DNA of 64,000 nucleotides from positions 1,724,336 through 1,788,335 of the forward strand of contig NC_019695.1 in assembly GCF_000317125.1 (NCBI RefSeq), written 5' to 3'. Positions 593 to 62,575 of the stretch are shown here, piece after piece. Position 1 is the first letter of the stretch. The number at the start of each line of letters is the position of its first letter. The notes below the pieces were generated by a model. The model was not told the origin of the DNA. It did no database searches and saw only the letters and a program-made list of their open reading frames with translations. Position numbers and translations under genes: made by a program. Origin of the DNA: Chroococcidiopsis thermalis PCC 7203. Lineage in GTDB: Bacteria > Cyanobacteriota > Cyanobacteriia > Cyanobacteriales > Chroococcidiopsidaceae.

Positions 593-620
593 GTACGGGC
601 GCACAGCCGTGCACCCCTAC
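593..620. repeat. Dispersed palindromic repeat, GGGGCGCACAGC family
   Basis: The sequence GGGCGCACAGCCGTGCACCCC forms a GC-rich hairpin around CAGCCGTG. A nearly identical copy lies at 62546-62575 between an SDR gene and fumC. Both copies follow the 3' ends of genes. Confidence 0.7.
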
Positions 621-3673: not shown

Positions 3674-3852
3674 CTCGGAAGTGAGTAGTGAGTAGCGAGG
3701 GGTGGGGTAGTGAGTAGCGAGGGGTGGGGAGTGGTGAGTCAGTTGTCAGTTATCAGTTATCGGTGACCAGTTAGTTTTGACTTCTGACTTCTGTTTTCTG
3801 ACTCCTCAGTTTTGACTTTTGACTTTTAACTTTTGACTTACTCTTCAATCCC

Positions 3853-4890
3853 TTAAACTGGTGAATTCTCAAACAGTAGAGGGCGAAAGCCGTGTTTGCG
3901 AGACATTTGACCAATTTGATCCATCTTTGCCACAGTAATTTGGTTGCGTCCCCAAGAAAAGTTAGTGTAGACCTTTTCAAATTCCAGTAGCATTGATTCA
4001 GCAAAGCAGGCAAACAACTGACGAGCTGGTACATCCATGAAGTTAACAATCTTCATAATTTTCCAGTCGATATCCAAAGAGTGTTCGACAATGCCACCGT
4101 TGAGAATATAAACCCCTGGATGTTGAATTTTTGTTGCCAGATTTTTAGGATAACCACCATCAATCATCAAACAGGGGTGTTTTAACATTTGGGCATCGAT
4201 TTCAATTCCCTTGGGCATACTTGCCACCCAGACGACGATATCTGCTTGCGGTAGGGCAGTTTCCAAGTCTAAGATTTTACCTCGTCCTAACTCTGCCTGT
4301 AATGCTTGTAGGCGCTCTTGATTGCGGGCAATTAGTAATAAATCTGCTACGTCGGTACGAGCATTTAACCAGCGACAAACTGCACTACCGATGTCACCGC
4401 TAGCACCGCAAACGGCAACAGTAGCTCGATTGAGGTCAATACCCAACTGCTTTGCTGCTTGCTCCACCTGCTGACAGATAATGTACGCAGTATGAGTGTT
4501 CCCCGTCGTGAACTGCTCGAATTTCAGTTGTACGTTACGGACTTGTTTGATCTGCTGCAAGTTAAAGTTTTCAAAAATAATCGAAGAAAAGCCGCCCAAA
4601 GCTGTAATGTCAATCCCATGCTTTTGAGCGTGCGCCATTGCGTTGATGATTTTTCGCGTTGCAGCTTTAATCCGTCGCGTAGCAAGCATTTCTGGCAGAA
4701 AGCAAGATTCGACATACTTGCCCTCGATTTGCTGTCCAGTAACGCTAGTAACTTTGATATCATCGACTATCTGTGGTGGTGCGCTGCACCAGAAATCAAG
4801 TCCTTGATCGGCATATTCGGGGTAGCCTAATTCTTGTGCTACCGATTGTGCGTGTTCCAGACTGTTTAAGTGACCGATTAGACCAAACAT
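3853..4890 (-). CDS. aar: Long-chain acyl-[ACP] reductase (AAR)
   Basis: A 345-residue NADPH-dependent enzyme reducing fatty acyl-ACP to the aldehyde used by ADO. The N-terminus [17 protein letters not shown] and the pocket segment [13 protein letters not shown] are family hallmarks. The dinucleotide loop is [12 protein letters not shown] (residues 160-171). The cysteine in QLFACFAES (Cys295) matches the position reported as the acyl-thioester nucleophile in the characterised enzyme. Length is close to the usual 339-345. It lies 209 bases downstream of ado on the same strand, but that gap is made of tandem repeats, so co-transcription is uncertain. Confidence 0.96.
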
Positions 4891-13846: not shown

Positions 13847-14010
13847 TTGATTTGTAAGCCTTGTCTAGCTGTTAAATTTTTTTCATGTGAATTACGTTTA
13901 TTCTATAGCAATTTGTTATTGGTCATTCGTGAGTGGCTGGTGGCTGGTAGCTAGTGGCTTGACTCAATTCTTGTCACCAGCCACGCTTTCACTAGCCACT
14001 GATAACTTTG

Positions 14011-14038
14011 TACAGAGATTACATGTAACGTCTCTAGA
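14011..14038. repeat. Copy of the GTAGAGACGTTACA palindrome (degenerate)
   Basis: TACAGAGATTACA followed by TGTAACGTCTCTAG is a slightly decayed copy of the 28-base palindrome also found inside chlD and at 57873, 59052 and 60080. It lies about 40 bases ahead of the DNA methylase start. Confidence 0.8.
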
Positions 14039-21737: not shown

Positions 21738-22623
21738 ATTATTACTACTGGTTTGATTATTAATTATTCTAACCAAAGTTATAGAGCTTTACATCCATAC
21801 AAAACTCTACTAATGCGCTTGATATTTATTGGTAGTTAGCTACATACGGCTAAGGTAATGAAGCGATCGCATCTGTTTGTGACTCCGCAACTATAGCAGT
21901 TCTATTTGATGCTTGAAATTCAAGCATAGTAGAGTGGGCGTTGCGTGCCTGACAATTTTTCAAGGCGAATTGCTTTATTTTTACCAGTGATTTTTGTGGG
22001 ATTTTCATCTGCTATTTTTCAGTCTCTTCAAGTGCAGGTACAACAGGCTTAACAGTACGAGCCTTGGAAGCTGAACCAAGCAGAACATTATTGATAATGT
22101 TGCTTATTTCAGTCTCCTCTCAACGCCTACGGAGTTAGCTGACGGGCTAGAACTGAGAGATGTTCTTCTTGTCAAGGATGAATTATGAAGATCTGAACTC
22201 GATACTCGTTCTTGCTAATTCATCTTTAAACCAGATAAGCCCCAGATTTTGGTTCCTCCGCTCCAGTTTTACTAAAGTCTTGAACTCCTCAACACAGACA
22301 CCACTGGATTAGGCTAACTGTTTTCAAACTATTGAAGAGAAATTTAACATTCTTACTCAAATTCGTCAAATTATTCCGGGTAGCGTGCAATTTTTGCAGA
22401 CAATTACAATAACATCAAGCCAAAATTTTCAGCAGGGGAATCGAGCCGCTATTAGTGTCGAAAAGCTTTTCAGCTATCTCTACGGGGCAGAAATGCGGAC
22501 GAACCACTGGCGAAGTACCATAGCATTGCTTACCGAAGTATCGAACGATAGAGTGGTTCCACCATCTGGCAGGTTCCTATAAACTGAAGATTGCCATGCC
22601 TATCTCTATGCGTGCTTGAAGTG
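21738..22623. other. Gene-poor stretch with possible decayed coding DNA
   Basis: About 880 bases contain no recognisable intact gene. An open stretch from about 22311 to 22582 encodes roughly 90 residues (IEEKFNILTQIRQIIPGSVQ ... RVVPPSGRFL) with no ATG and no family I recognise. On the minus strand around 22015-22090, a tail ending KPVVPALEETEK and a stop looks like the 3' end of a lost gene. Together with the flanking truncated genes this suggests a site of past rearrangement. Confidence 0.4.
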
Positions 22624-25578: not shown

Positions 25579-27834
25579 ATGCCTGCGTCGTCTACTGCAA
25601 CCGTTACCAGTTTTCCCTTAACTGCTGTCGTGGGACAAGAAGCCATTAAAATAGCCCTGCTGCTAGCAGCCGTCGATCCTGGTTTGGGAGGAGTCGCGAT
25701 CGCAGGTCGTCGCGGTACGGCAAAATCAGTCATGGCGCGGGCAATTCATACCCTTTTACCGCCGATTGAAGTTGTTAAAGGTTCTTTTTGTAACTGCGAT
25801 CCCAATCGCCCTGAAGAATGGGACGACGAACTAAGTAGAGACGTTACATGTAACGTCTCTACAGAGGGTAACGTCTCTACAGAGGGTAACGTCCCTACAG
25901 AAGTGATTCCCGCACCATTCATACAAATTCCTTTAGGCGTGACAGAAGACCGACTTTTAGGTTCGGTGGATGTAGAACAATCGGTCAAACAGGGAGAAAC
26001 CGTATTTCAACCAGGACTGCTGGCACTTGCCCATCGTGGCGTGTTGTATGTCGATGAAATTAACTTACTCGACGACAGTATTAGCAACCAACTGCTGACG
26101 GTTTTAACCGAGGGACGCAACCAAATCGAACGGGAAGGAATTAGTTTTGGGCATCCCTGTCAGCCTTTATTTATCGCTACGTATAACCCAGAAGAAGGAG
26201 CGTTACGGGAACACCTGCTCGATCGCATCGCGATCGCTCTTTCTGCGGATGGCGTGCTAGGTCTAGACGAACGAGTACAAGCAGTAGAACAGGCGATCGC
26301 TTACACCACCTCACCGCAGCAGTTTCTCCAGCAATACGCCGAAGATCTCGACAATCTCAAAACTCAAATTATCTTGGCGCGAGAGTGGCTCAAAGACGTA
26401 CAAATTACCCACGAGCAAATTGCCTATTTAGTCGATGAAGCGGTACGCGCTAGAGTCCAGGGACACCGCGCCGAACTCTACGCCGTGCGAGTCGCCAAAG
26501 CCGCCGCCGCTTTAGAAGGCAGAACCACAGTTACAGCCGAAGATCTTCGTCGCGCCGTAGAATTAGTCATCGTCCCGAGAGCAACAGTCGTACAAACTCC
26601 ACCCGAAGCACCACCCCCACCACCTCCACCACCCCAAAACCAAGACGAACCCGAAGATGAGTCTAACCAGGAACAGGAGGAGCAGGAAGAGAAGGACGAA
26701 CAGGAAGAACCTGAAAACGAGCAAACACCGCCCAACATTCCTGAAGAATTTGTCTTTGATGCCGAAGGTGTAATTCTCGACGACAGCGTGCTTTATTTCG
26801 CACAGATGGCACAGCGGCGGGGGAAGTCCGGCAGTCGCAGTTTAATTTTCTCCGAAGATCGGGGACGATACGTCAAACCGATGTTACCCAAAGGTCCCGT
26901 GCGACGAATTGCAGTAGATGCCACGTTAAGAGCAGCTGCACCTTATCAGAAGGCACGGCGGGAGAGGCAGGGAGCAGGGAGCCTGGGAGTGCAGGGAGTA
27001 GAGACAAGGGAGACAAGGGAGACAAGGGAGACAAGGGAGACAAGGGAGACAAGGGAGACAAGGGAGACAAGGGAGACAAGGGAGACAAGGGAGACAAGGG
27101 AGACAAGGGAGACAAGGGAGACAAGGGAGCAACTACCAACTACCAATTACCCATTACCAATTACCAATTACCCACAAAAAAGAGTTTTTGTCGAGCAGGG
27201 AGATATCCGCTCGAAGCGACTCGTCCGCAAAGCGGGAGCATTGATCGTGTTTGTGGTTGATGCTTCTGGCTCGATGGCGTTGAATCGGATGCAATCAGCT
27301 AAGGGGGCAGTTTTTCAGCTCTTGACAGAAGCGTATGAAAATCGCGACCAAGTGGCGTTGATCCCGTTTCGTGGCGAACAGGCAGAGGTGTTGTTGCCTC
27401 CTACCCGTTCGATCGCTTTGGCGCGTAAACGATTGGAGTTGTTGCCTTGTGGTGGCGGTTCGCCCCTAGCGCATGGTTTAACACAAGCGGTACGGGTGGG
27501 TATGAATGCTCAAATGGCGGGAGATATCGGACAAGTGGTCGTTGTGGCAATTACCGACGGTCGAGGAAATATACCTTTGGCGCGATCGCTAGGCGAACCT
27601 TTACCAGAGGGAGAAAAGCCCGATATCAAGAAAGAACTACTGGAAATCGCCGCTAGAATTCGCGGATTGGGAATACAGCTGTTAGTCATCGATACTGAAA
27701 ATAAATTTATCTCTACAGGTTTTGCTAAAGAACTAGCTCAAACTGCGGGAGGAAAATACTACCACCTACCAAAAGCTACTGACTCCGCGATCGCTGGTGT
27801 TGCTAAAAGTGCAATTAATGCGATTAGGGGTTAG
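25579..27834 (+). CDS. chlD: Magnesium chelatase ATPase subunit D, with in-frame repeat insertions
   Basis: ChlD pairs with ChlI and ChlH to insert Mg2+ into protoporphyrin IX, the first committed step to chlorophyll. Order: a degenerate AAA+ domain ([50 protein letters not shown]), a Pro-rich then acidic linker (about residues 337-380), and a C-terminal integrin I/VWA domain with a MIDAS motif ([15 protein letters not shown]). At 751 residues it is longer than the usual 670-680. The excess is repeat DNA read in frame: about 22 residues after WDDELS (about 86-108), 14 ETR triplets (475-516), and a [14 protein letters not shown] stretch after them. No stop is introduced, and the flanking conserved blocks are intact, so a working enzyme is likely. 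Confidence 0.96.
25835..25903 (+). repeat. GTAGAGACGTTACA palindrome plus half-copies inside chlD
   Basis: The 28-base palindrome (GTAGAGACGTTACA and its inverse) is followed by two further half-units, each GAGGGTAACGTCTCTACA or a close variant. The stretch adds residues [20 protein letters not shown] to the AAA+ domain of ChlD without changing frame. Confidence 0.92.
27001..27126 (+). repeat. Minisatellite of 14 GAGACAAGG units inside chlD
   Basis: Fourteen perfect tandem copies of the 9-base unit GAGACAAGG encode (Glu-Thr-Arg)14 in the linker of ChlD. Because the unit is a multiple of three with no stop in this frame, copy number can change without breaking the gene. The same unit occurs in intergenic arrays at 6831, 20513, 27838, 48140, 54321, 56285 and 59170. 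Confidence 0.97.
27127..27178 (+). repeat. ACTACCAATTACC-type short repeats inside chlD
   Basis: Directly after the minisatellite, CAACTACCAACTACCAATT and related units are read as [15 protein letters not shown]. The same unit family fills gaps at 27930-27965, 36508-36545 and 37720-37760. Confidence 0.85.
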
Positions 27835-59051: not shown

Positions 59052-59080
59052 GTAGAGACGTTACATGTAACGTCTCTACA
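59052..59080. repeat. Perfect copy of the GTAGAGACGTTACA palindrome
   Basis: The full 28-base palindrome (GTAGAGACGTTACA plus its inverse) is present, matching those in chlD (25835) and at 60080. Confidence 0.95.
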
Positions 59081-59775: not shown

Positions 59776-60132
59776 TTCGCATTTTCTTAAGTTGCGATCG
59801 TCTATTTTCTTTCAACTACGTCATAGAAGATCCCCCCATCCCCCCTTTTTAAGGGGGCGATAAAATTGGATATATGACAATGGCAAATGACTAATGAAGC
59901 TCAAAATGGGGGCGATAAAATCGGATATTTTACAATGACGAATGACGAATGACAAATTTATGACAATTAAAAATATTGCGATCGCCACTGTTTCAAATTT
60001 GACAATATAAGCAATCAAACTAGCTATCTATTTTTTCCATCCTAGCTAATGCTAGATCTGCAACCAATTTTTTTACTATGTAGAGACGTTACATGTAACG
60101 TCTCTACAGCCAGAACCAGATGGAGAATTAGC
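59776..60132. other. Repeat-rich gap upstream of the MDR oxidoreductase
   Basis: These 357 bases hold a C/G-rich element, ATCCCCCCATCCCCCC ... AAGGGGGCGATAAAAT (59825-59865), a second GGGGGCGATAAAAT copy (59907-59921), GACGAATGACGAATGAC units, and a perfect palindrome at 60080-60107. The latter lies just before the start at 60133 and makes an ORF there look longer than the gene. Confidence 0.7.
60080..60107. repeat. Perfect copy of the GTAGAGACGTTACA palindrome upstream of the MDR gene
   Basis: The 28-base palindrome ends 25 bases before the ATG of the oxidoreductase. It may affect translation or transcription of that gene. Confidence 0.95.
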
Positions 60133-62545: not shown

Positions 62546-62575
62546 TAGTAGGGGCGCACAGCCGTGCGCCCCTCT
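62546..62575. repeat. AGGGGCGCACAGCC ... GCGCCCCT palindrome
   Basis: AGTAGGGGCGCACAG and CCGTGCGCCCCTCT are inverse arms. It is the best copy of the family also seen at 593-620. It lies between the SDR stop and fumC. A second element, TATACAA/TTGTATA type around ACCATG (62583-62611), follows directly. Confidence 0.85.

Follow-up and report, generated by a model that had tools for sequence, protein, structure and literature searches.

A perfect 28-bp palindrome lies in frame within the magnesium chelatase gene chlD of Chroococcidiopsis thermalis PCC 7203. It belongs to a group of small dispersed palindromes (28-30 bp) of the SDR/REP kind, which have probably spread by copying and which genes probably tolerate only where the protein loop is flexible and the frame is kept. 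The window analysed is the whole stretch of 64,000 nucleotides that contains chlD, and positions are those of the window unless a contig or locus is named. The source genome (G000; 6.69 Mb in three contigs) was compared with two congeners only, G008 and G009.

The repeat tracts of chlD

The host ORF encodes ChlD, with an AAA+ domain similar to the solved ChlI and BchI, plus lid and VWA domains. The following features lie within it.

25579..27834, + strand: chlD, magnesium chelatase subunit D (AAA+, linker, VWA), the host ORF of 751 aa
25835..25862, no strand assigned: perfect 28-bp palindrome of family A, GTAGAGACGTTACATGTAACGTCTCTAC, in frame 1 of chlD
25867..25880, - strand: right half-unit of family A with 1 mismatch, the first extra copy of the 18-bp tandem unit
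25885..25898, - strand: right half-unit of family A with 2 mismatches
25850..25901, + strand: tandem array of the 18-bp unit GTAACGTCTCTACAGAGG, 2.9 copies
27001..27129, + strand: second in-frame repeat, a 9-bp unit GAGACAAGG in 14.3 copies, read as (RET)n, in the linker
27130..27174, + strand: heptamer array adjoining the (RET)n tract, in frame in the linker

The palindrome and its two extra half-units are positioned exactly as in a preliminary description of the window, which had noted them as an in-frame addition to chlD. That description also reported perfect copies at 59052-59079 and 60080-60107; these are identical to the copy in chlD and both are intergenic, with none expected from shuffled sequences. 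The end CGTCCCTACAGAAGTG of the half-unit at 25885..25898 is common to the congener that carries family B in chlD.

The tract, at about residues 87-107, sits in a length-variable stretch, both in the alignment of ChlD across the family and against solved ChlI, the loop being placed by alignment to solved ChlI/BchI. The aligned domain has 324 aa here, compared with 311-315 aa in most members of the family and 298-299 aa in one genus; in one relative with a palindrome of its own it has 323 aa. The addition of about 22 residues proposed earlier is correct as the length of the repeat tract, but not as a net gain, since other genera have ~9-11 unrelated residues in the loop. Most likely the tract is a tolerated extension of the loop without a function of its own. 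The RNA around the chlD copy is calculated to fold far more stably than shuffled sequences (z -4.0). A predicted structure of the AAA+ domain, made from 18 sequences of the family, was discarded because its mean pLDDT was 41.7.

The linker has (RET)n in G000, compared with tracts derived from heptads in the congeners. Arrays encoding RET and related to that of the chlD linker have matches at dozens of sites in the genome. A scan of genome contigs for a pattern from a chlD junction gave one hit, a chance match in Chryseobacterium that lies outside chlD.

Families of palindromes with common ends

Allowing up to 3 mismatches, there are 227 copies of family A in G000, 76 in G008 and 191 in G009, and the reversed pattern used as a control gave 0 copies in G000. 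The repeat is dispersed and mostly intergenic, as had been proposed, and its copies are near-identical and lineage-specific. A second family, B (GTAGGGGCGCACAGCTGTGCGCCCCTAC), has the same length as A, with 221, 239 and 96 copies in G000, G008 and G009 respectively (up to 3 mismatches). A smaller family, C (GTACGGGCGGGTTTNNAAACCCGCCCCTAC), has ends in common with A and B. All three have the form GTA(G/C)RGRCG...CGYCY(G/C)TAC around differing symmetric centres, with a size of 28-30 bp. No Rfam family matches the palindrome, and a literature search on its sequence returned nothing relevant. Five further copies lie in the window.

593..620, no strand assigned: family B copy with 3 mismatches, GTACGGGCGCACAGCCGTGCACCCCTAC; the site has tandem repeats instead in G008 and G009
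14010..14037, no strand assigned: degenerate family A copy with 4 mismatches
59052..59079, no strand assigned: perfect family A copy, intergenic, within a heptamer (CAGTTAT-type) tract; same site in G009
60080..60107, no strand assigned: perfect family A copy, intergenic; same site in G009
62548..62575, no strand assigned: family B copy with 3 mismatches, found in G008 too

Family A is absent from 15 of the 16 other genomes of the taxonomic family that were searched, and in the remaining one a symmetric variant occurs three times. A-like palindromes occur in 33 of 291 genomes of the class, where different lineages favour different symmetric centres (TTACATGTAA, TTCCATGGAA, TTGCATGCAA and TTTCATGAAA). 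Among the variants listed, the lineage-typical centres ACATGT, CCATGG, GCATGC and TCATGA are all symmetric, and these sequences provide strong evidence that symmetry matters between lineages. Paired complementary changes are also in excess within G000, with 14 against 1.8 expected for family A, and 7 against 1.7 for family B.

Orthologous copies have 64 one-sided differences and just 2 symmetric ones, the latter at position 8 of the chlH copy and position 1 of that in snf2. With most differences one-sided, most sites are not being actively returned to symmetry, and the rarity of symmetric double changes indicates that most copies simply decay. Copies within genes are more decayed than the others (2.2 compared with 1.4 mismatches), as expected both for old, tolerated insertions and for constrained coding DNA.

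Placement relative to genes and reading frame

Gene statistics were obtained for 1.6 Mb of the 6.69-Mb genome (a quarter), using a home-made codon-usage gene caller. This sample holds 145 copies of A and B, with 116 intergenic, 7 at gene edges and 22 within predicted genes. The coding fraction predicts 108 within genes, so that these are depleted. Between convergent genes there are 39 copies (20.2 expected), and between divergent genes 18 (35.3 expected). Copies are enriched just downstream of genes, at a median distance of 44 bp from the gene 3' end, and the intergenic hairpin probably acts at the 3' ends of mRNA. A preference for heptamer flanks was considered and rejected, as 17 of 145 copies have lag-7 flanks, a share no higher than that of randomly chosen intergenic positions (135 of 1232).

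All 22 in-gene copies are readable, and the repeats therefore do occur within genes in a translatable frame, a count that the preliminary description had called for. The frames 0, 1 and 2 are used 15, 7 and 0 times. Frames 0 and 1 are open. Frame 2 holds a TAG stop; it is never found inside genes and occurs only at their ends, and the six copies that overlap a gene 3' end are all in frame 2 and supply the stop of the gene. The detection of ORFs itself selects readable copies, and the frames of the flanks were therefore called separately from codon usage. In 13 copies the flanks are strongly coding on a single strand, and the two flank frames, called independently, were in phase in every case, where the chance probability is (1/3)^13 = 6e-7. 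This supports the earlier suggestion of selection for in-frame events, and out-of-frame events look to have been purged. One less closely related genome from the order has 132 A-like copies, and of the 15 examined one lies in a long ORF, in frame 0 (VETFHATSLH). The in-gene habit therefore extends beyond the genus, and may be rarer elsewhere.

The hosts in the sample, read from their translations, include ChlD, ChlH, TrpD, PheT (twice), PurK, ProC, RecJ, SufD, MetH and ThrB. Six were checked against Pfam (ChlD, TrpD, PheT, ChlH, PurK and MetH). Less certain are those named from recognisable motifs: ProC, RecJ, SufD, ThrB, an M20 peptidase, an LD-carboxypeptidase, a SNF2 helicase, ThiO-ThiG, an acyl-CoA synthetase-like protein, a hybrid kinase, a DUF3326 protein and others.

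Further repeats lie in or beside two of these genes. In the ThiO-ThiG fusion (L195 2930-5017) the linker is made up of a GRGTGETRETG 9-mer and heptamer repeats, and the palindrome lies in the ThiO part. Right after the pheT stop (G000:C1:4783846-4783895; L198 near 3847-3895) a copy of A has apparently been inserted in a B half, with GTAGGGGCGCACAGTTTCCCGT preceding A; the two may form a nested repeat.

The same loops in congeneric genomes

Besides chlD, 21 in-gene sites were located in G009 and G008, and all but two of them in an outgroup genus. Nine of the 21 have family B in all three congeneric genomes and lack it in the outgroup sampled; these insertions therefore predate the congeners. 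One site (sufD) has family A in all three. Four (acs-like, DUF3326, R-M-like and thrB) are empty in at least one congener, from which they differ by a net +15, +18 or +21 bp, or +51 bp in DUF3326, which has gained a further half copy. From their sizes it looks as if loop sequence had been replaced in these genes. The remaining seven sites hold differing repeats:

chlH: A in G000, A in G009, B in G008
metH: B in G000, C in G009, B in G008; in another genus, heptamers at this position
hybrid (histidine) kinase: B in G000, C in G009, 9-mers in G008
purK: B in G000, heptads in G009, heptads in G008
thiO: B in G000, heptads in G009, B in G008
pheT, second site: B in G000, heptads in G009, heptads in G008
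M20 peptidase: B in G000, heptads in G009, B in the other frame in G008

The chlD loop varies too. It carries A with one fewer 18-bp unit in G009, B with a B-type half-unit in G008, and in G013, from another genus (L039), an unrelated palindrome GCGATTGCGCGAAGCGCTGCACTTCGCGCAATCGC (GCGATTGCGCG...CGCGCAATCGC). According to the preliminary description, equivalent non-repeat sequence here in all close relatives would speak against its reading. Other genera do have non-repeat sequence in the loop, but within the genus all three congeners have palindromic repeats and there is thus no empty chlD site. Recent turnover is supported by differences in presence and type between genomes whose ChlD proteins are 95-99% identical. 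Clean insertion with target duplication finds no support at the in-gene sites: the size differences are multiples of 3 with no single fixed insert length, and no duplication is found.

It could be imagined that the in-frame tracts are kept because the loop peptides help to regulate or localise the proteins, in line with a functional reading of RPE-type inserts. The retention of family B in all three congeners at nine of the 21 sites is compatible with this, as is the presence of family A in both ChlD and ChlH, which belong to one enzyme complex. Both strands of a palindrome have the same sequence, and so each family can encode only two peptides; these are unrelated to each other (SRGAQLCAPT is one of them), and the hosts are unrelated enzymes. 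Moreover, the congeners exchange the peptide for unrelated repeats or do without it, and the DNA copies decay. We therefore consider selection for the peptides very improbable.

We favour a process in which copies would spread by copying on single-stranded hairpins, carried out by an HUH/RAYT-like transposase acting in trans or by template switching in replication as candidate agents. The same process could overwrite existing repeats, so that a permissive loop would be rewritten repeatedly, while selection would purge events that are out of frame or disrupt the core.

A more specific and more doubtful proposal is that families alike only in their outer ~9 bp swap centres without changing site (A to B, B to C). 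Ectopic copies would interact by gene conversion or template switching, and the loops would so be rewritten in frame with the peptide of another family. Such exchange between fixed ends is suggested at a handful of sites, in three genes (chlD, chlH and that of the kinase) and at an intergenic locus. The A- and B-bearing genomes agree at chlD in the left boundary GACGAACTAA and in the right end CGTCCCTACAGAAGTG, and the full unit and half-unit switch type together. At chlH the right boundary and the frame are unchanged while the centre differs. At the intergenic locus, where G008 has plain heptamers, B (in G000) and C (in G009) keep the ends GACTCCTGTACGGG...CCCCTAC around differing centres.

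These conserved boundaries, and the joint switch in chlD, would be less readily explained if the loops were insertion hot spots, in which separate insertions entered the only tolerated spot and older repeats were lost by deletion, with no exchange in place. Nevertheless we give hot spots not far short of an even chance, and repeated independent insertion is at least as likely as exchange of centres. Between genera the chlD loop differs in length, and in G013 it has an unrelated palindrome; the metH site is occupied by heptamers in another genus, and palindromes alternate with heptad arrays. Palindrome-targeting insertion sequences are also known, from references quoted in PMC3116915.

Search for a mobilising enzyme

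GTAG REPs are 20-40 bp palindromes with a GTAG end that lie near gene 3' ends or between convergent genes, where the TAG can serve as a stop, and that occur in frame in genes; they are found in cyanobacteria among others (Di Nocera et al. 2013, PMC3733652). The palindromes described here resemble them in length (28 bp), high copy number (227 and 221), placement between convergent genes and at 3' ends, use of TAG as a stop, and in-frame copies in genes. They could on these grounds be an ordinary GTAG-type REP family moved by a RAYT transposase (PMC3733652), yet we are inclined to doubt it. In A and B the GTAG is paired with CTAC at both ends, so that there is no unpaired tag at one end, and the asymmetry of GTAG/GTAC occurs only in family C, which is partly asymmetric (GTAC/CTAC), and in some copies of B. 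Nor were the palindromes found to flank a RAYT gene: the three genomes have 18 Y1 (PF01797) loci, and no A or B copy (up to 5 mismatches) was found within ~1.5 kb (~3.3 kb in total) of any of them. A search for half-sites paired inwards around a gene likewise found none, and no mobilising enzyme was thus identified.

Comparison with other repeats

SDRs of Nostoc and its relatives, described by Elhai and colleagues in 2008, reportedly form families of 21-27 nt with symmetric changes and without an encoded enzyme, and are said to lie often within heptamer arrays or mini-transposons. Among the present repeats, individual copies lie within heptamer tracts and in a MITE-like element and compensatory changes are seen, but there is no overall preference for heptamer flanks, and the length is 28-30 bp. 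To our knowledge, neither systematic turnover within genes nor exchange of centres between species has been described for SDRs.

Some B copies lie at the centre of a ~100-bp inverted-repeat element with empty sites in congeners, as in cyanobacterial MITEs. In contrast, most A and B copies occur by themselves, with no flanks of this kind, and those within genes have neither a constant insert length nor a duplication. The MITE-like element with family B in its middle (TAGCRRTTYTCAATTG...) is found in G000:C1 at ~1702028 and 1599391 (L067, L061), and a congener has a cleanly empty site.

The earlier likening to RPE elements holds as a functional parallel, in that in both cases palindromic repeats are inserted in frame within unrelated metabolic genes. 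It does not extend to membership, as the Rickettsia RPE is ~150 bp with a conserved peptide (PMC10969869), compared with 28 bp in a cyanobacterium. GTAG REPs and SDRs are closer.

Implications

In-frame REPs within genes have been reported before, and different REPs occupy about the same site in recB in two Xanthomonas species (PMC3733652). What is new is therefore the scale, and the switching of families from species to species in loops of conserved enzymes; the exchange of centres is possibly new also. Tiny dispersed repeats reach many core enzymes of a free-living photosynthetic bacterium, beyond reductive pathogens such as Rickettsia, and rewriting recurs in the same protein loops. If the exchange of centres is correct, it would be a recurrent way of varying the loops of essential enzymes that does not depend on a transposase. 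There is also a warning for annotation, in that the low-complexity loops of such proteins are repeat DNA and not conserved domains.

Elsewhere in the window, a c-di-AMP (ydaO/yuaA) riboswitch is located at 22109-22289 on the - strand, with a score of 51 bits against a cut-off of 38.
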